From positions 1-51,893 of the forward strand of contig CACGMO010000015.1 of the NCBI GenBank assembly GCA_902574225.1: DNA of 51,893 bases, read 5' to 3'. Positions 11,596 through 47,960 of the stretch are shown piece by piece (positions within the stretch are counted from its first letter, which is position 1; every line of letters begins with the position of its first letter). The notes under the pieces were generated by a model. That model made no database searches. It saw only the letters and a program-made list of their open reading frames with translations, and was not told the DNA's origin. Origin of the DNA: an uncultured Alphaproteobacteria bacterium (GTDB taxonomy: Bacteria > Pseudomonadota > Alphaproteobacteria > Rhodobacterales > Rhodobacteraceae). The translations under genes were made by a program, and so were the position numbers.

Positions 11596-13365
11596 TTAGT
11601 TGAAAAACTTTTTTACAAAGCTTCCGAGAGACTCTCGTAAACCTTCATTATTTAAATGAAACCTATCTATTTCCATGTCCCAGTCCATCTCTTTAAACTG
11701 GTCTTTGTTGTCAGCAAACCATGGTTCGGATCTATATTCTATCTCTTCATCATCACAAATTTTTGCGGTGACTAACCATGACTTGAAGTCAATATCCTGT
11801 AGTTTGTTTACTAGCTCTTTACACATCTTACTGTTTCTATCCATAAAATATCCGAAAAGAACAGCACTAGTTCTATGGTCTGTATTTGTTTTCCCCATCG
11901 GTATCGGATCCAATTCAAGCGCGCTCTCTAGAAGCTCTATTCCCCTCTCTGTTGAACCCGTTCTTGATAGAATCTCTCCATAAACTGATAATACTCTCGG
12001 ATCATTTGGTACCATTTTAAATGAGGTACGCGCATGTCTTTCTCCAGCTTTGAAATCATGACTACTTAATGCAACTTCTGCTAGCATTCTATGGACTTCA
12101 AAGTCATTGTCATTTAACTGTTGAGCCTTCTCTATGCACTGCATTAAATTATCCCACCATTCCTCCGTGTCACCTTCGAGATAGTCGCGTCCCATTGCTT
12201 GGCCTATAGCGCAAGCCTTCCAAGCATATGCCTGACCATTATTATTATCGGCTTGGATCGCTTTATTAAAGGAATCGATAGCTTCAAGGCACGACTCTCT
12301 TTTAAACTTGTGGTGCAACACTTTTCCTCTTAGTAAAAGTTCATATGATGTAAGGTTTTCTGTGGGTTTACGATTGGCCCGTTCAAGGCTTGAAATTTCA
12401 ATCTCTCCTAAAAGTGCCAATGATATTTTTCTCACAATTTCGTCTTGCACATCAAAAATGTCTTCTAAAATACGATCATATTTATTGTTCCAAAGAGCAT
12501 TTCCATCAGTTGCGTCAGATAGTTCAACAGAAATTCTTACTCGCTTACCAGATGTACGAATGCTTCCTGAAACTGCAAAATCTACTCCAAATTTTTTACA
12601 AAAATCTCTTATACTACTGGTGGCATCACGAAATTCGAAACAAGACTGTCTAGACAAGACTTCAAGTTCTCGAATTCGTGAAAATTCTGTGATTAAATCT
12701 TCAACAACACCATCAACTAAATAACCGCTATCTTCATCATTATTCATATTATCGAAGGGTAAAACTGCTAATTTTGGCTTATAACTTTTTACTTTCTCTT
12801 GTGCTTCCTTTTCCTTTAGTGCATCGGTCCTAGAAATTTTTTCGCCAGAGGGCGAGATTCCATATACTTGAAAGGCTTCGTCAATATTCTTTAAGGATTT
12901 CGTCCCAGCATCTTCAATGGTGAAATTTATTCTTTTATTAACCTGATCTTGTACAGCTGTTGAGAGAAGAATTTGTCCTGGGGAGCAGGCAGTCTCAAGT
13001 CTGGCTGCAATGTTTACGCCGTTACCATAGACATTATCTCCTTCTATTATAACATCATCAAGATGTATACCAACTCTCCAGTCAAGCTGAGATTCTTCAG
13101 AAAGTGTATTATTTCTATCATTGATAGCTTTTTGAAAACCTATTGCGGCATTTACACATTCAACGGGACTTTCAAACTCTGCTATCACAGAGTCACCTGC
13201 TGTATAGAAAATCCTTCCTCCGAATTCCTTAATCTGCGGGTCAATTATAGATCTGCAGGCTTTTAGGTTTTCTAGTGTTAGTTCTTCATTCTCATCCATT
13301 CTTTTGCTAAAGCCGACACAATCAGTAGCAAGTATAGTTGTTAATTTGCGTTTAACTTTTGACAT
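11596..13365 (-). CDS. Class III nucleotide cyclase with TolB-like and TPR domains
   Basis: A 589-residue protein. Residues ~5-170 are a class III cyclase domain: metal Asp15 (ILATDCVGFS) and Asp58 (YTAGDSVIAEF), catalytic Asn118 and Arg122 (GVNIAARLE). Residues ~195-330 are the TolB-like domain common in alphaproteobacterial cyclases (LAVLPFDNM, SGYLVDGVVEDL, VSGSIRTSGKRVRI). Residues ~335-520 are TPR repeats. The two residues that normally recognise adenine (Lys in K-T-x-G-D and Asp in D-x-Y-G) are Tyr54 and Asn111, so nucleotide preference is uncertain. No membrane segment is seen. It lies 95 bases downstream of gcvP on the same strand, with a hairpin in between. A close paralogue is at 30866-32638. 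Confidence 0.92.
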   Translation of the reverse strand: MSKVKRKLTTILATDCVGFSKRMDENEELTLENLKACRSIIDPQIKEFGGRIFYTAGDSVIAEFESPVECVNAAIGFQKAINDRNNTLSEESQLDWRVGIHLDDVIIEGDNVYGNGVNIAARLETACSPGQILLSTAVQDQVNKRINFTIEDAGTKSLKNIDEAFQVYGISPSGEKISRTDALKEKEAQEKVKSYKPKLAVLPFDNMNNDEDSGYLVDGVVEDLITEFSRIRELEVLSRQSCFEFRDATSSIRDFCKKFGVDFAVSGSIRTSGKRVRISVELSDATDGNALWNNKYDRILEDIFDVQDEIVRKISLALLGEIEISSLERANRKPTENLTSYELLLRGKVLHHKFKRESCLEAIDSFNKAIQADNNNGQAYAWKACAIGQAMGRDYLEGDTEEWWDNLMQCIEKAQQLNDNDFEVHRMLAEVALSSHDFKAGERHARTSFKMVPNDPRVLSVYGEILSRTGSTERGIELLESALELDPIPMGKTNTDHRTSAVLFGYFMDRNSKMCKELVNKLQDIDFKSWLVTAKICDDEEIEYRSEPWFADNKDQFKEMDWDMEIDRFHLNNEGLRESLGSFVKKFFN

Positions 13366-30865: not shown

Positions 30866-32638
30866 ATGGCTAGTGTAAACAGAAGACTAACATCTATTTT
30901 GGCAACTGATTGTGTAGGATTTAGCAGTCTAATGGAAAAAGATGAAGAGAAAACACTAGAAAATTTAAAGGCCTGTCGTTCTATTATAGATCCCTATATT
31001 GAAGAATTTGGTGGAAAAATTTTCTATACCGCCGGAGACTCTGTTATTGCTGAATTTGCGAGTCCCGTTTCCTGTGTCAACGCTGCGATAAACTTTCAAA
31101 AAGCTATTGATGAAAGAAATAAAGTAACCGAAGAAAGCTCAATCATGACATGGCGAGTGGGAGTGCATATGGATGACGTGATTGTTGAAAAGGATAACAT
31201 TTATGGTAGTGGTGTTAACATAGCTGCACGGTTGGAGGCTGCTTGCACTCCTGGCCAAATACTAATTTCATCAACAGTGAAGGATCAAGTTGATAACAAA
31301 ATAGAATTCAAAGTTGAAGATGCGGGTACTAAGGCATTAAAGAATATTTCCGATAGTTATCAGACGTTTGGCATTTCTCCAACAGGTGGGAAAGTAGAGA
31401 AGACTGATGGTAGGAGCTACGCAAAAAAGGAGTCTGAGAAAAATTATAAGCCAAAGCTAGCTGTCATGCCGTTCTCGAATGCCAGCAATGACGAAGATAG
31501 TGGGTATTTAGTAGATGGAATCGTAGAGGACTTAATAACTGAATTTTCCATGATAAGAGAATTAGAGCTAGTCTCTCGACAATCATGTTTCGATTTTAGA
31601 GACAACGAGATGGATCTGAAAGCATTCTGTGAAAAGTTTGGCGTTGATTATGTTGTTGTTGGTAGTATTCGTTCATCTGGTAAAAGGGTTAGAATCTCAG
31701 TTGAATTGTCTGACGCAAAAGATGATAGCCAGATATGGAGCCAAAAGTTTGATAAAATCATCGAAGATATCTTTGATGTACAAGATGAAATAGTTAGACA
31801 AATTTCTGGAAAACTTCTGGGAGAGATTGAATTATCGAGCTTAGAGAGAGCTCAAAGAAAACCCACTGAAAATTTGTCTTCTTACGAATTACTTTTGAAG
31901 GGCAAGGTTTTACACCACAAAATACAAAAGGATGCGTTACAAAACGCTTTGACAACGTTTGATGAGGCTATAAAAGCTGACGAAACTAACGGTCAAGCGT
32001 ATGCTTGGAAAGCCTGTGCTCTCGGCCAGGGAATGAGTAGAGGCTTTATTGAGGGTGATATGGCTCAAATATGGAGTGAAGCGGAAGGATGCCTTAAAAA
32101 AGCACATGAACTTAATGATAATGATTTTGAGGTTCATCGATTGATGGCCGAGGTTAATTTATCGGGAAGAAACTTTAGATTAGCAGAAAGACATGCCTCT
32201 AAGGCTTACAAAATGGTTCCCAATGATCCACGAGTTTTATCAGTTTATGGGGAAGTATCACTGCGATTAGGAAAAATCGATCAAGGCTTAGATGCGCTGA
32301 AGCTAGCATTAGAGATCGACCCAATTGCACAAGGAAAAACAAACTCTGACTCCAGAACAGCTCCAGTAATATTTGGAGAGTTTTTGGCTAGAAATAAAGA
32401 TAATTGTCTCGAGTTAGTAGAAAAATTAGAAGATATAGACTCTAAATCATGGCTTTTAACTGCAAAGCTCTGTAGTGATGAGGAACACGATATAATAGAA
32501 GAAGATTGGTATAAACGCGGAAAGGAAGAGTTTAATGATAAAGATTGGGCAGCTGAAGTTGATAGCTTTCGGCTCAATAATGAAGGAGCAAAAGAGTCGC
32601 TAATAGAGTTTGCTGAAAGTCTTTTTTTAAAGGCTTAA
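30866..32638 (+). CDS. Class III nucleotide cyclase with TolB-like and TPR domains (paralogue)
   Basis: A 590-residue protein alignable along its whole length with the cyclase at 11596-13365. Cyclase domain: Asp15, Asp58, Asn118, Arg122 present at the same numbers, and again Tyr54 and Asn111 in place of the adenine-recognising Lys and Asp. TolB-like domain from ~195 (KPKLAVMPFSNASNDEDSG, VVVGSIRSSGKRVRIS) and TPR repeats from ~335 (NGQAYAWKACALG, VPNDPRVLSVYGE). A GAAGG-like site lies before the ATG. A gene duplication with both copies kept suggests distinct inputs. Confidence 0.92.
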   Translation: MASVNRRLTSILATDCVGFSSLMEKDEEKTLENLKACRSIIDPYIEEFGGKIFYTAGDSVIAEFASPVSCVNAAINFQKAIDERNKVTEESSIMTWRVGVHMDDVIVEKDNIYGSGVNIAARLEAACTPGQILISSTVKDQVDNKIEFKVEDAGTKALKNISDSYQTFGISPTGGKVEKTDGRSYAKKESEKNYKPKLAVMPFSNASNDEDSGYLVDGIVEDLITEFSMIRELELVSRQSCFDFRDNEMDLKAFCEKFGVDYVVVGSIRSSGKRVRISVELSDAKDDSQIWSQKFDKIIEDIFDVQDEIVRQISGKLLGEIELSSLERAQRKPTENLSSYELLLKGKVLHHKIQKDALQNALTTFDEAIKADETNGQAYAWKACALGQGMSRGFIEGDMAQIWSEAEGCLKKAHELNDNDFEVHRLMAEVNLSGRNFRLAERHASKAYKMVPNDPRVLSVYGEVSLRLGKIDQGLDALKLALEIDPIAQGKTNSDSRTAPVIFGEFLARNKDNCLELVEKLEDIDSKSWLLTAKLCSDEEHDIIEEDWYKRGKEEFNDKDWAAEVDSFRLNNEGAKESLIEFAESLFLKA

Positions 32639-40642: not shown

Positions 40643-41494
40643 ATGACCACTTCATCGAAAAAAGGAATAATAACGCTAATTATAGCAACGTTCTTTCTTG
40701 CATTGATGGATGGTATGTCGCGCTATATGGCCGAACTTTATGATGTTTTAAACATAAACATGTTTCGATTTTGGATAATTGGAAGTTTTGTGATTTTAGT
40801 CAGCTTGAGAGGCCGGGGTGTTTTAAAGTCAATTTTAAATACTAAGCAACCAATTGCCCAGATCTCTAGAGGTCTTTTATTTATTTCATCCTTATTAATG
40901 GCTATCTACTCATATACTCAAGTTGGATTAATAGTGACACATGCACTTATGGCAGTTTTCCCCCTCCTAACGGTGCTGTTGTCTGGGCTGTTTTTAGAAG
41001 AGAAGATTACAAGAATAAAAATTGTAGCAGTAGGAGTAGGATTTATAGGAGTAATAATCATAATTAACCCAATAAATCTTGAATTCTCTTTAGTATCTGT
41101 CTTGCCTTTGATCTCTGCGGTTACATTCGCAATTTATGCAGTGCTTACAAGGAAGGTAGCTTCCACAGATAATACTGAAACCAGTTTTTTTTGGGTGTCT
41201 TTAGTTTCTGCAATGGCGATCACAATTCCTAGTCCGCTATTTTATAAGCCGATAATGTTCTCCGATTTATACTTCCTAATTTTGTTGTGTATGTTCAGCC
41301 TGGTAGGGCACTTTTTGCTTACCAACGCCTATCGCCATGCAGAAGCCAGTGTATTGCAACCATTTTCATATTTTCATCTTTTCTTTGCTTCTATAGTAGG
41401 AATTATATTTTTCCAAGACCCTTTAACGATTTCAACCGTTGCTGGGGGTGGTTTAATTGTTTCTGGTGGGATTTTGATTTCAAGAAAAAGTTGA
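40643..41494 (+). CDS. EamA/DMT family transporter (RhaT-like)
   Basis: A 283-residue membrane protein with ten spans in two EamA repeats. KSILNTKQPIAQISRGLLFISSLLM (in part) and HALMAVFPLLTVLLSGLFLEEKI are typical of the first repeat; EASVLQPFSYFHLFFASIVG of the second. Not closely like the DMT protein at 38764. Substrate unknown. It is the last gene before the polyamine operon, 61 bases before its likely promoter. Confidence 0.9.
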   Translation: MTTSSKKGIITLIIATFFLALMDGMSRYMAELYDVLNINMFRFWIIGSFVILVSLRGRGVLKSILNTKQPIAQISRGLLFISSLLMAIYSYTQVGLIVTHALMAVFPLLTVLLSGLFLEEKITRIKIVAVGVGFIGVIIIINPINLEFSLVSVLPLISAVTFAIYAVLTRKVASTDNTETSFFWVSLVSAMAITIPSPLFYKPIMFSDLYFLILLCMFSLVGHFLLTNAYRHAEASVLQPFSYFHLFFASIVGIIFFQDPLTISTVAGGGLIVSGGILISRKS

Positions 41495-41554
41495 AGGTGA
41501 ATAATGAGGTTTTCACAAAAAACATTTTTCTATTTCTTTTTTTTTAAAATTTTG

Positions 41555-41825
41555 TATAAACGCGTCTACGCTCGTGTCTCTAACCCCTGAAAATTCAGAT
41601 AATGGTTATGCAACGGCGTAAATGTTTTTAATTCGGGGCGGGCTTTGTTTGGTGCTCAAACGCATAAAGTCCCATCCGCCTAGTTTTGAGAGGGTTTGCG
41701 TTATCAAATAACTTTGTGTGCCAAAAGGGATATCTACCTTTTTTAGCATTTAACGTTAGGATTTTTATCGCGAGCTTTTCATTTTTAATATGGTGGCTTA
41801 TGCCAGTCAAAAAGGGAGAAATAAA
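41555..41825 (+). promoter_or_regulatory. Promoter and long structured leader of the polyamine operon (riboswitch-like)
   Basis: A TATAAA box (41555-41560) starts a ~250-base leader with several nested helices. TAACC/GGTTA (41581-41585 with 41604-41608) encloses CTGAA/TTCAG (41587-41591 with 41594-41598). A long composite stem pairs GGCGG with CCGCC (41637-41641 with 41676-41680), GCUUU with AAAGU (41642-41646 with 41666-41670) and GUUUG with CAAAC (41647-41651 with 41657-41661). GTTAT/ATAAC (41700-41704 with 41708-41712) follows. AAAAGG/CCTTTT plus two further T (41723-41744) resembles an attenuator. TGGC/GCCA (41794-41797 with 41802-41805) lies just before the GGGAG ribosome site. No ORF fits. 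It matches none of the riboswitch classes I know by eye; alphaproteobacterial speF-type RNA must be compared. Confidence 0.55.
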
Positions 41826-42278
41826 ATGACGGCACAAAATCAGATTATTTCCGACCCAGCTCCATGGGGTCAGCATCTAGTCTTAGATTTCAATGGATGT
41901 CCTAGAGAACTTATATCTGACAAAAAAAATATCCTAAATTGGAGCAACGAGCTTGTGGGCGCTATTAATATGGTTGCCTATGGAGAACCAGTAGTAGAAC
42001 ACTTCGCTACACATTCCCATGAAGCAGCGGGGTACACATTACTTCAGATGATTGAAACGTCAAATATTGCAGCACATTTTGCTGAAAATATTGGGCAGGT
42101 ATATATTGATGTTTTTTCTTGTAAGGCATTTGATGTTGATGTGGCTGTTGAGGTGTGTAAAAAATATTTCCGTCCCACTCAAGCCAATGTGCACAATATG
42201 GATCGAGGGTTTCACAAAGAGAATCAAGATAAGGCAAAAGATTTTACTGAGGAGGTTCAAGATGACCGGGCAGCCTAA
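41826..42278 (+). CDS. SpeD-like protein, divergent AdoMet decarboxylase homologue (possible pyruvoyl amino-acid decarboxylase)
   Basis: Start at ATG 41826, eight bases after GGGAG; 150 residues. It aligns with SpeD from the N terminus (GQHLVLDFNGC against GRHILADFWGV) through the processing region (ETSNIAAHF against SESHISIHTWPE) to DVFSC against DVFMC. The Ser that becomes the pyruvoyl group is kept (Ser79), as are the later His84 and Cys99, but Glu before it is Thr78, the His after it Asn80, and the TWPE segment is lost. Such neofunctionalised SpeD homologues are known to act as pyruvoyl-dependent ornithine or arginine decarboxylases. Beside speE and a true speD, that is the best guess. 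Overlaps speE by 17 bases. Confidence 0.75.
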   Translation: MTAQNQIISDPAPWGQHLVLDFNGCPRELISDKKNILNWSNELVGAINMVAYGEPVVEHFATHSHEAAGYTLLQMIETSNIAAHFAENIGQVYIDVFSCKAFDVDVAVEVCKKYFRPTQANVHNMDRGFHKENQDKAKDFTEEVQDDRAA

Positions 42279-43167
42279 TTTCATAGAAGATGTTCACAGT
42301 ATTTACACTGTAAAAGGCAGTAAGGCATTTCAGGGATTTGAGATCAATAAAACACTATTTGAAGGTAAAAGCGAATATCAAGATGTCTCAATTTATGAGA
42401 ATGACTCTCTTGGTCGTATTTTGACACTTGATGGTATCATTCAAATCACGGAATGTGATGAGTTTGTATATCAAGAGATGATGACACACGTACCGCTTTT
42501 TTCTCACGAAAACCCCAAAAATGTTCTTATTATTGGTGGAGGTGATGGTGGAATATTGCGCGAAGCTCTTCGTCATAAAGGAATAAAAAGAGTTGTTATG
42601 TCAGAAATTGATCAATTGGTAGTTGATGCTTGCATAGAATATATGCCCAGTATCAATAATCATGGTAAAGTTTACAAAGATCCTCGCACACAACTAATAG
42701 TTGGGGATGCTTTTTCTTTCGTAAAGGATACAGATTTAAAGTTTGATGTGGTTATCATAGACTCCACAGATCCCATTGGACCTGGGGAAAAGCTTTTCTC
42801 TTACGAATTTTACAAAAACTTGGTGCAAACTCTTAATGAAAATGCCGTGGTATCAACACAAGGTGGAGTTCCCCAATTCCAGCCTGGTGAAGTTGGGGCT
42901 ACACTGTCCTGTCTCGAAGATGCGGGATTGCGCGCTAATTGTTATATCGCTGCGGTTCCGACTTATTACGGTGGATACATGACCTTTGGTTTCGGTGCGT
43001 ACAAATCGAATTGGTCTTTACCAAAATTGGAGGCATTAGAGCAACGCTATAGCAGAGCTCGTATTACAACTAAACACTATAGTCCTAAGATGCATCTGGC
43101 ATCTTTTGTTCTTCCTCCCTGGATTGAAGATGACATTAATTCTTATCCTATGAAGAAGACGAGGTAG
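42262..43167 (+). CDS. speE: Spermidine synthase (aminopropyltransferase)
   Basis: Start at ATG 42262, six bases after GAGGAGG inside the upstream gene; 301 residues. LIIGGGDGGILREALRH is the SAM/dcAdoMet-binding motif, TECDEFVYQEMMTHVPL the N-terminal gatekeeping segment, VVIIDSTDPIGPGEKLFS the catalytic Asp region, and TYYGGYMTFGFG the C-terminal signature. It transfers an aminopropyl group from decarboxylated AdoMet to putrescine (or a similar amine). The middle gene of speD-like/speE/speD, with speD starting six bases after its stop. Confidence 0.96.
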   Translation: MTGQPNFIEDVHSIYTVKGSKAFQGFEINKTLFEGKSEYQDVSIYENDSLGRILTLDGIIQITECDEFVYQEMMTHVPLFSHENPKNVLIIGGGDGGILREALRHKGIKRVVMSEIDQLVVDACIEYMPSINNHGKVYKDPRTQLIVGDAFSFVKDTDLKFDVVIIDSTDPIGPGEKLFSYEFYKNLVQTLNENAVVSTQGGVPQFQPGEVGATLSCLEDAGLRANCYIAAVPTYYGGYMTFGFGAYKSNWSLPKLEALEQRYSRARITTKHYSPKMHLASFVLPPWIEDDINSYPMKKTR

Positions 43168-43173
43168 CATAAA

Positions 43174-43587
43174 ATGAACCATCTCGATAGTGATTATTTC
43201 TCAATGTGTTCATCGACGGGTGATCAGTTTGCTGGGCGTCATATACTAGCTGACTTTTGGGGAGTTGAGCGAATGAGCGATTTAGATTTTATCAAGAAGA
43301 CAATTGAAGAAAGTGCACGAAAGGCTGGCGCTAATATTCTCCATTCTTATTATCATCCTTTTGGGGACGGGATGGGTGTGAGTGGTGTGACTGTTTTATC
43401 TGAAAGTCATATCAGTATACACACATGGCCAGAACGCAGTTTTGCATCAATTGATGTCTTTATGTGTGGAAATTGTGATCCCCAAACCACTATAAATTAT
43501 TTAAAGAAGACTTTGAAACCCTCCTCAATTGATCAAAGCTTAAACCGCAGAGGAGTAGTTTCAGCTGTCGCACAAATATACAGTTAA
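43174..43587 (+). CDS. speD: S-adenosylmethionine decarboxylase proenzyme
   Basis: A 137-residue class 1 bacterial SpeD. The processing site is LSESHISIHTWPE: cleavage between Glu77 and Ser78 would make the pyruvoyl cofactor from Ser78; His83 and Cys98 are the processing and catalytic residues. It makes decarboxylated AdoMet for the preceding speE. GAGG before the ATG lies in the end of speE. The presence of this canonical gene means the SpeD-like protein two genes upstream is not simply the only SpeD. Confidence 0.96.
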   Translation: MNHLDSDYFSMCSSTGDQFAGRHILADFWGVERMSDLDFIKKTIEESARKAGANILHSYYHPFGDGMGVSGVTVLSESHISIHTWPERSFASIDVFMCGNCDPQTTINYLKKTLKPSSIDQSLNRRGVVSAVAQIYS

Positions 43588-45764: not shown

Positions 45765-47150
45765 TCAGATTGTAATTATCGATGTTTGCAATGCTTCGAT
45801 GTAGTTAGTTCTCCACATACTAATATTAAAAGATTGTAATTGATCAAAAGCACTGAGCCATCTTCTCAAGCGTTCCTTTTTAGGCATTTTTAGTGCATGA
45901 TTCAATGCATCTGCTACTCCCTCCGGATCATGGGGGTTCACAATCAAAGCGTCGGGAAATTCCTCTGCTGCTCCTGCAAATCTTGACAAAATTAGTACTC
46001 CTGGATCACTAGCGCGTTGAGACGCAATATATTCCTTTGCCACCAAATTCATTCCATCTCGTAGCGGTGTTACGAGTCCAATTCTACTATTTCTAAAAAA
46101 TCCCATAAGACTTTTTTGCTGGAATCCCTTATTCAGATACCTTATTGGCGTCCAATCAAAGTCACCATACGCACTATTTATTTTTCCAGCACTAAGCTCT
46201 AATTTTTTTCTTATTTCTTTGTACTGAAAAACAGAACCTCTTGAGGTAGGGGCTATTTGAAGGAAAGTTGTTGATCTGATGTGTTCACTATGATTTTTAA
46301 GAAGATTATTATATGCCGAGAATCTAAGCTCAAGCCCCTTCGAATAGTCTAGCCTATCGACGCCAACAATTAGTTTGTCTGTTTTAATACTTTTGATTAG
46401 TCTTTTTACTTGAGGAGAGTTATCAGTTTCTTCTGATATTTTTACAATTTTGTTCGTATCTATAGATATTGGAAAATGTTTTACCTTAGACTTTTTACCT
46501 AAGGCAAATATTGATCCATCTGGTTCAACTGAGCCTCCTAGCTCACTAATGATATAATCTAAAAAGGTAAGCACATGTTTTCTGGTTTGAAAGCCTATCA
46601 AGTCAAACTCTAAGAGAGCATCAACAAGCTCTCGATGATCAGGTAATGCAGTCAAAATTTCTTTTGATGGCCATGGTATATGTAAAAAGAAGCCTATTTT
46701 CTGAGTGCATTTAAGCTTTCTTAACTCTTTAGCGATAAATAAAAAATGATAATCATGAACCCATATCAAATCTTCACTTTTTAGAAGTTTTTTAATCATT
46801 AAAGAAAAAGATTTATTAACCCCTTTATAACTTTCGAATTTTAATTTGGAATAATCTACCAAGTCCAATCTATAGTGAAAAATAGGCCAGAGTACTTCGT
46901 TACAATAACCGTTGTAGTAATTTTCATAATCTTTTTTGGTTAGGTCAACAACGGCAAAAGTTATTTGTTCATCCTTTTTGACAACTGGTTTAATATTCTT
47001 ATTTGTGGTGACTCCTCCACTCCAACCAAACCAAAGACCGTTTGTCTCCTGCAGCGTATCAAATAATGCAACTGCAAGACCACCAGCTGCTTCAGGTTTC
47101 TTTTCCTTAGGAAGCATAACTCTATTAGAAATAATGACTACTCTACTCAT
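45765..47150 (-). CDS. otsA: Trehalose-6-phosphate synthase
   Basis: A 461-residue GT20 enzyme. N-terminal VVIISNRV, then LAVALFDTLQETNGLWFGWSGG (in part), the substrate-binding WVHDYHFL, FFLHIPWPSKEIL, GVDRLDYSKGL, and the C-terminal RDGMNLVAKEYIA and GVLILSRFAGAAEE are all canonical. Joins UDP-glucose and glucose-6-phosphate to trehalose-6-phosphate. 15 bases after the otsB-like gene. Probably osmotic or desiccation protection; promoter region upstream of otsB. Confidence 0.96.
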   Translation of the reverse strand: MSRVVIISNRVMLPKEKKPEAAGGLAVALFDTLQETNGLWFGWSGGVTTNKNIKPVVKKDEQITFAVVDLTKKDYENYYNGYCNEVLWPIFHYRLDLVDYSKLKFESYKGVNKSFSLMIKKLLKSEDLIWVHDYHFLFIAKELRKLKCTQKIGFFLHIPWPSKEILTALPDHRELVDALLEFDLIGFQTRKHVLTFLDYIISELGGSVEPDGSIFALGKKSKVKHFPISIDTNKIVKISEETDNSPQVKRLIKSIKTDKLIVGVDRLDYSKGLELRFSAYNNLLKNHSEHIRSTTFLQIAPTSRGSVFQYKEIRKKLELSAGKINSAYGDFDWTPIRYLNKGFQQKSLMGFFRNSRIGLVTPLRDGMNLVAKEYIASQRASDPGVLILSRFAGAAEEFPDALIVNPHDPEGVADALNHALKMPKKERLRRWLSAFDQLQSFNISMWRTNYIEALQTSIITI

Positions 47151-47165
47151 AACTGTCCAATTGAT

Positions 47166-47960
47166 TTACCTTGATTTTAGAAGCTGCTTCATCAATTCGT
47201 GAACGGATTTAACATTAGGTAAAAAGAAGTTGGCTTTACTTCTTTTATAATTTCCAACACGAACTGACCAGCCACCTTTATTGTTAACAGTTTCAAAACC
47301 ATCTTCATCGCTAACATCATCACCGATAAAAATTGGTCTCCGCTTTATAAAAGGTTTGGTTCTCATAAAGTATGAAATTGCCGTTCCTTTATTGTGGCTC
47401 AGGGGTTTAACTTCTATAACTTCCTTTCCTTTAAGGAAAGTTAATTTGGGTTCATATTTTACGAGCTCCATTATTATTTTATTAATTTCTTTTCTGTCGA
47501 TCGTTGAATTTCGAAAATGAACAGTTAAATTTGAACCCTTATTTTCAATCTCAATATTTTTTTGTTCATCAAGTAACTCCTCAATTTTATGGGCAATTCC
47601 CTTTATAATTCCAGTATCGGCTTGGTACTCGTTGGTCCGGAATGCATCTCTCAATTGTGCTCCGTGGTTTCCAGCGAGAGGAATTTTATTGTTATCGAAA
47701 ATCCTATCTAGATCATCTAATGATCTACCACTTATAAGTCCTAATGCACCTCCAAGTCTATTACGGATGTTATGCAGTTTTTTTTGCAATCGAAAACAAG
47801 GTTTAATCAAGCTTGGACTATTCTCGATATTATATAGAGTGCCATCAACGTCCAGGAATAATGCTATTTGTTGGATATCTTTCGGAAGTATTTTTACAGT
47901 AAATTGTGACGCCACTTTAAAGGTTTCGTTTTTTTTGATTAAAATCGACCATATAAACAC
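47166..47960 (-). CDS. otsB: Trehalose-6-phosphate phosphatase
   Basis: A 264-residue HAD-superfamily phosphatase. IALFLDVDGTLYNIE is HAD motif I (D-x-D-G-T), LISGRSLDDLD motif II region, AGNHGAQLR, and FIGDDVSDEDGFETVN motif IV. It dephosphorylates trehalose-6-phosphate from the OtsA step. The frame opens at GTG 47960 but the first true codon is uncertain; GTG 47913-47915 is the next option. First gene of otsB-otsA. Confidence 0.93.
   Translation of the reverse strand: MFIWSILIKKNETFKVASQFTVKILPKDIQQIALFLDVDGTLYNIENSPSLIKPCFRLQKKLHNIRNRLGGALGLISGRSLDDLDRIFDNNKIPLAGNHGAQLRDAFRTNEYQADTGIIKGIAHKIEELLDEQKNIEIENKGSNLTVHFRNSTIDRKEINKIIMELVKYEPKLTFLKGKEVIEVKPLSHNKGTAISYFMRTKPFIKRRPIFIGDDVSDEDGFETVNNKGGWSVRVGNYKRSKANFFLPNVKSVHELMKQLLKSR

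Follow-up and report, generated by a model that had tools for sequence, protein, structure and literature searches.

A SpeD-derived, predicted pyruvoyl-dependent ornithine decarboxylase in a speDC-speE-speD operon of an uncultured Rhodobacteraceae-like alphaproteobacterium

The SpeD family of S-adenosylmethionine decarboxylases (AdoMetDCs) has given rise to pyruvoyl-dependent enzymes that act on amino acids, and the available text of Li et al. (J Biol Chem 2023; PMC10407285) describes both the ornithine decarboxylases derived from SpeD, denominated SpeDC, and the arginine decarboxylases, SpeDA, which are likewise SpeD-derived. In this text, the SpeDC of Ca. Electrothrix aarhusensis (RWX43081), found in a context of nspC and carboxynorspermidine synthase genes, was assayed as an ornithine decarboxylase, while Gln, Thr, Phe, and Tyr residues are given as diagnostic of SpeDC, and S63, H68, and C83, with their respective roles, as the processing residues of the T. 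maritima SpeD. Among the phage enzymes presented in the accessible part of a second study (PMC9992855), that of HTVC201P was assayed as an arginine decarboxylase (ADC) and that of phiN3 as an AdoMetDC, and a third, UCP01, accepted both arginine and ornithine. A search of the literature for SpeDC as an ornithine decarboxylase (ODC) recovered the 2023 paper alone, and one for SpeDC in the Alphaproteobacteria recovered no papers. The idea of a pyruvoyl ODC derived from SpeD is not new, then, given that the family was published in 2023 (PMC10407285), and the protein described here would be a further SpeDC.

The locus lies in a window of 51,893 nucleotides—the whole stretch of DNA that was analyzed—from the genome (G000, 88% complete) of an uncultured Rhodobacteraceae-like alphaproteobacterium, a group not named as a carrier of SpeDC in the available text of PMC10407285. 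Three genes follow one another on the forward strand. These are speDC (41826-42278, +), which encodes the predicted pyruvoyl-dependent ornithine decarboxylase (150 aa; PF02675 AdoMet_dc, 77.4 bits against a cut-off of 25), the spermidine synthase gene speE (42262-43167, +; 301 aa; Spermine_synth, 194.8 bits; TIGR00417, 285.2 bits vs. 249.55; NF002010, 315 vs. 260), and speD (43174-43587, +), encoding a canonical class 1b S-adenosylmethionine decarboxylase (137 aa) with the SESH...HTWPE signature (TIGR03330, 120.3 bits vs. 75.65; PF02675, 110.8 bits). The first two genes overlap by 17 nt and the last two are separated by a gap of 6 nt. The open reading frames have the coordinates first read from the sequence and, with their Pfam matches, bear out the original observation of a SpeD-like gene, speE, and speD arranged in one operon. 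The two operon genes are the only PF02675 genes in G000. The start of speDC at 41826 is favored over the alternative at 41790 by a GGAGAAA upstream and by the codons downstream, both of which are conserved. Elsewhere in the window, inspection by eye revealed two similar cyclase-like proteins (11596-13365, -, and 30866-32638, +) and a pair resembling trehalose-phosphate synthase and phosphatase (45765-47960, -).

The first protein retains Ser79, His84, and Cys99, the counterparts in the alignment of the three processing residues of the T. maritima SpeD, and these are invariant across 66 aligned relatives. The E-T-S-N motif and the absence of TWPE are also confirmed, as first read from the sequence. 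The description of the protein as a “degenerate” SpeD, by contrast, was wrong, given that residues 69-85 are invariant in 14 genomes of the genus, except for the nearly invariant position 81, and that the dN of speDC is low (0.10-0.14) in relation to a saturated dS (1.2-2.9) in 13 comparisons. In the AlphaFold (AF2) model, which has a mean pLDDT of 88.8, the protein adopts the AdoMetDC fold, and its best match in the PDB is the class 1b AdoMetDC of T. maritima, 1tlu (E 1.2e-9, with a TM of 0.69 when scaled to the query and 0.87 when scaled to the target), with which it shares the Ser, His, and Cys, but not the ESH and TWPE, which are replaced in the window protein, with the identity between the two being 23%.

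The diagnostic set of SpeDC is complete in the window protein (Q74, T78, F85, and Y93), with the alignment columns of these residues being deduced from the available text of PMC10407285 and from the alignment with a locus of Ca. Electrothrix aarhusensis, L061. The L061 protein has all four of these residues and is 50% identical to the window protein over 115 residues. Downstream of its gene are nspC (411.7 bits, against a cut-off of 409.05) and then a carboxynorspermidine-synthase-like gene (479 bits, below the cut-off of 800), and the protein is equated with the assayed RWX43081 by organism and gene context, not by accession. When 227 SpeD-family domains were aligned, the Q..TS pattern was found in 163, none of which lacks the Ser, His, or Cys, and all four diagnostic residues were present in 131, with the Phe or the Tyr missing from 32 of the 163, while most of the remaining 64 domains have ESH and HTW. 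The assayed phage enzymes each share part of the set, that is, Gln and Thr in the case of HTVC201P, where both the Phe and the Tyr are missing and the Ser precedes a His, and Gln, Phe, and Tyr in that of phiN3, which lacks the Thr, so that no single residue is diagnostic.

The first gene, speDC, very probably encodes a SpeD-derived pyruvoyl L-ornithine decarboxylase, and the operon would yield spermidine from ornithine and SAM with no PLP enzyme being involved. The SpeDC proenzyme would cleave itself between Thr78 and Ser79, with Ser79 being converted into the pyruvoyl cofactor, and the enzyme would decarboxylate ornithine to form putrescine. Following the established functions of their respective families, SpeD would convert SAM to decarboxylated SAM, and SpeE would combine this product with putrescine to form spermidine. 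The predicted identity of the first protein as a SpeD-derived pyruvoyl amino-acid decarboxylase, as originally proposed, is supported by the diagnostic residues, the identity with the Electrothrix SpeDC, and the phylogeny presented below. The window also agrees with the SpeDC systems, as presented in the available part of PMC10407285, in the fold, the self-processing and diagnostic residues, the operon with speE and speD, and a genome in which no PLP ODC or ADC was found, but differs in the speDC-speE-speD order of the genes and in a C-terminal extension of approximately 20 residues.

The proposed synthesis of spermidine from an amino acid in the absence of a PLP decarboxylase is also supported by the genomic context, given that no PLP or other pyruvoyl ODC or ADC was found in the genome or the genus, as assembled. 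A PLP ODC and a PLP ADC were searched for in G000, and neither was found in the assembled part, where the only PF02784 gene is LysA (TIGR01048, 464 bits); given that G000 is 88% complete, this absence holds for the assembled part only. In the genus, PF02784 is found in 20 of the 22 genomes, at 21 loci that are all relatives of LysA at 62-100% (the G079 gene is in two pieces), whereas neither PF01276 over its cut-off (one weaker match in G075) nor PF01862 (PvlArgDC) was found in any of the 22. Ornithine should be available, given that an argininosuccinate-lyase-like gene adjoins lysA (by eye). No speDC was recovered by tblastn from 60 other genomes of the family, although PF02675 is present in 12 of these, and PF02784 has two or more matches in 47. 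The 20 second PF02784 genes fetched from these genomes, chosen by score, are all 41-52% identical to the S. meliloti Odc2, and this similarity suggests that a PLP ornithine decarboxylase is present in at least 20 of the 60 members of the family that were sampled.

The residues favor ornithine over arginine as the predicted substrate, and the possibility that the first protein is a pyruvoyl arginine decarboxylase of the SpeDA type, with an agmatinase encoded elsewhere in the genome converting the agmatine to putrescine, is improbable. The SpeDA enzymes are SpeD-derived as well, and that of pelagiphage HTVC201P, which was assayed on arginine, shares with the window protein the Gln and the ETS at the cleavage site, but has a His following the Ser, S-W in the position of the Phe, and Gln in that of the Tyr (PMC9992855, in the part available), where the window protein has Asn, Phe, and Tyr. 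Arginase-family genes are present in 20 of the 22 genus genomes, and G000 itself has one, on contig C9, that exceeds the agmatinase cut-off (184.3 vs. 174.3), together with a second, on C3, that falls below it. The C9-type gene, however, occurs in eight of the 14 genomes with the operon and five of the eight without it (by eye, from the score and frame length), and is hence not tied to the operon, while its neighbors are unlike polyamine genes (by eye), and AguA is found in none of the 22 genus genomes.

It is far less probable that the first protein is a second bona fide AdoMetDC, even though it matches PF02675 and phiN3, which adjoins the SpeDC clade, is an assayed AdoMetDC, since phiN3 has Gln-Asp-Ser-His where the window protein has Glu-Thr-Ser-Asn, and a canonical SpeD is already encoded two genes downstream. 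The protein, which is without ESH and TWPE, also scores below the threshold of TIGR03330, the AdoMetDC model (43.7 vs. 75.65 bits), as do the Electrothrix SpeDC (34.6) and the phage ADC HTVC201P (38.4). A catalytically dead, prozyme-like partner that activates SpeD, as in trypanosomes, is just as implausible, for while the gene is paired with speD in one operon and the T. brucei AdoMetDC/prozyme structure is among the weak matches of the fold (rank 30), the invariance of the self-processing triad and the proximity of the gene to CASDC in five of the best 80 of the 408 related loci (L053, L055, L060, L061, and L074), where tblastn found no SpeD, argue against a role of this kind.

The assignment of the window protein to SpeDC, as a pyruvoyl ornithine decarboxylase, was also evaluated in trees of the SpeD family, which are based on 137-141 columns and thus on little data. 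The sampling was reduced from 227 domains and HTVC201P to 96 rows and then, with 40 long-branch or redundant rows being dropped, to the 56 rows of a careful tree. The careful tree separates SpeD from all the others at 100/99 and recovers a clade with the SpeDC motif at 94/94, which contains both the window protein and L061. The window genus groups with the Micavibrio locus L034 at 98/91, and these group with gammaproteobacterial rows at 100/97. Micavibrio is counted here, by assumption, among the Alphaproteobacteria; the NCBI lineage places L034 elsewhere. When the motif columns were excluded, a quick tree produced a similar but less clean grouping, in which the SpeD-like group needs two changes, not one. 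The AU tests on single rows with the quick tree left other placements unrejected (p = 0.073 with SpeD, 0.66 with the pelagiphage ADC, and 0.33 with phiN3), and are hard to use, as one forced tree outscored the free tree; in the careful tree, two other placements were not rejected (p = 0.095 and 0.103). The phylogenetic check suggested at the outset thus recovers the SpeDC-motif clade and the separate SpeD, but with none of the other placements tested being rejected by the AU tests, the tree supports the SpeDC placement without proving it.

The window SpeD, in turn, groups with the SpeD of Micavibrio at 99/94 and is separate from those of two other members of the family (95/100), and the SpeE of L034 is 68% identical to that of the window. 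The grouping of both SpeD and speDC with Micavibrio fits the joint descent of the operon genes, which appear, from the trees of the first and third genes and the identity of speE, to share ancestry with the operons of Micavibrio and other proteobacterial MAGs. Adjoining the SpeDC clade, the phiN3-type SpeD of Sinorhizobium phages (L019 and L302) has the Gln, Phe, and Tyr of SpeDC but Asp-Ser-His at the cleavage site, which may perhaps represent a reversion to AdoMet activity.

Within the genus, speDC is present in 14 of the 22 genomes. These are also the genomes with exactly two PF02675 genes, which flank speE in every case, while the eight others have none and are 58-80% complete. The named loci are the best 80 of 408 relatives, and among these 80, the speDC-speE-speD order is found in 31 (13 from the genus, one from the Micavibrio MAG, L034, and 17 from proteobacterial MAGs, most of which have Gammaproteobacteria in the title) and speD-speDC-speE in five. 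Two MAG records titled Klebsiella pneumoniae (L046 and L050), with a gammaproteobacterial-type speDC operon, probably have the wrong titles. In Leptospira interrogans (L017, 2479-3345), a SpeDC-type protein in a speD-speDC-speE cluster has approximately 160 extra N-terminal residues that are unassigned by Pfam.

A viral origin of the speDC of the genus was considered and rejected, given that the best viral relatives are 45-54% identical to it, in comparison with 60-66% in the proteobacterial relatives. Viral relatives number at least 559 in a broader scan, of which the best 80 were kept, and none were found in a single-protein scan of viral contigs. Four viral contigs (L131, L175, L176, and L167) have two adjacent SpeD-family genes, one of the SpeD (or pelagiphage) type and the other of the SpeDC type, and the Microcystis phage MaAM05 (L020, 986-3348) has four consecutive genes, namely speD, another SpeD-like gene, which lacks the SpeDC pattern, speE, and speB.

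The region upstream of speDC may be compared with two described RNAs, that is, a spermidine riboswitch that is a variant of SAM-I (PMC10853860, in its available part), and the speF leader RNA (RF00518), which is associated with the PLP ODC genes of alphaproteobacteria. In the window, the interval between speDC and the EamA gene upstream, which ends at 41494, contains a candidate leader RNA of approximately 130 nt with a conserved rod-like fold (41596-41724, +), supported by alignments and the covariance model R1. It is preceded by a conserved 5' part (41545-41595, +), in which a possible promoter -10 element was read by eye and a CGCACGTGTCTCT-like block is conserved; a scan of the leader region for promoter consensus found no more sites than in shuffled sequences. 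The leader block of the window is 87-92% identical to that of ten relatives, with 76-79% in the speDC DNA. Its fold is a long rod, for which z is -1.9 in the window sequence and ranges from -2.0 to -4.1 in those of five relatives. In the alignment, 96.5% of the cells pair, compared with 37-49% when slid, although the structure was derived from this same alignment. The covariation analysis recovered no pairs changed on both sides, with the shuffles being as high as the observed values; paired changes in the apical stem of the Micavibrio leader were seen by eye only.

Given that R1 was built from the window, 12 loci of the genus, and L034, all these match it by construction. Under strict filters, R1 located the leader in 14 of the 293 genomes searched, once in each, and these are precisely the genomes that have the operon, with no match in the other 279 (eight from the genus and 271 others). 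The leader of L034, first found by blastn, is located at the same place, whereas R1 detected no leader in the gammaproteobacterial operons searched, and matched two of 62 sources overall. A nine-codon frame, MVMQRR[K/E]CF, is intact in 13 of the 14 leaders of the genus and cut short in L023, with a 16-codon version in Micavibrio. Rfam provided no credible match to the leader in either the window (41495-41840, E up to 10) or L034 (3640-3990), with none for SAM-I either. An independent small RNA, such as 6S, is not favored, because the leader is found only in operon genomes, under the strict filters, and has no match in Rfam.

The likeness to the speF leader, as presented in the accessible part of PMC1273637, is one of layout only, with a long 5' leader before an ODC gene and conservation that extends from near the putative start site on to a long bulged stem-loop. 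RF00518 itself has no match in the window or L034, whereas the same search detects speF in L340 and L341, and R1 found nothing above noise at these real speF leaders. Derivation from the speF element of a lost PLP ODC is not supported, with speF being absent from all 20 of the fetched PLP ODC-type loci of the family. One tentative reading, to which somewhat less than even confidence is given, is that an undescribed cis-regulatory RNA (41596-41724, possibly from approximately 41545) controls the operon, sensing ornithine, a polyamine, or SAM, or acting through the leader peptide, and that it has been kept with the PLP-free operon in two distant lineages, the window genus and Micavibrio. The leader may be more novel than the SpeDC assignment, as a lead and not a result, and if real, it would represent a regulator of polyamine synthesis that is absent from Rfam 15.

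For the biology of the group, these findings point to a PLP-free route to spermidine in an uncultured marine genus, where the operon would replace the PLP ornithine decarboxylase of at least 20 of the 60 sampled members of the family. The operon is a unit common to the window genus, Micavibrio, and mostly gammaproteobacterial genomes, and a question already raised in the literature, why PLP-dependent enzymes give way to pyruvoyl ones, becomes testable in small-genome marine bacteria.
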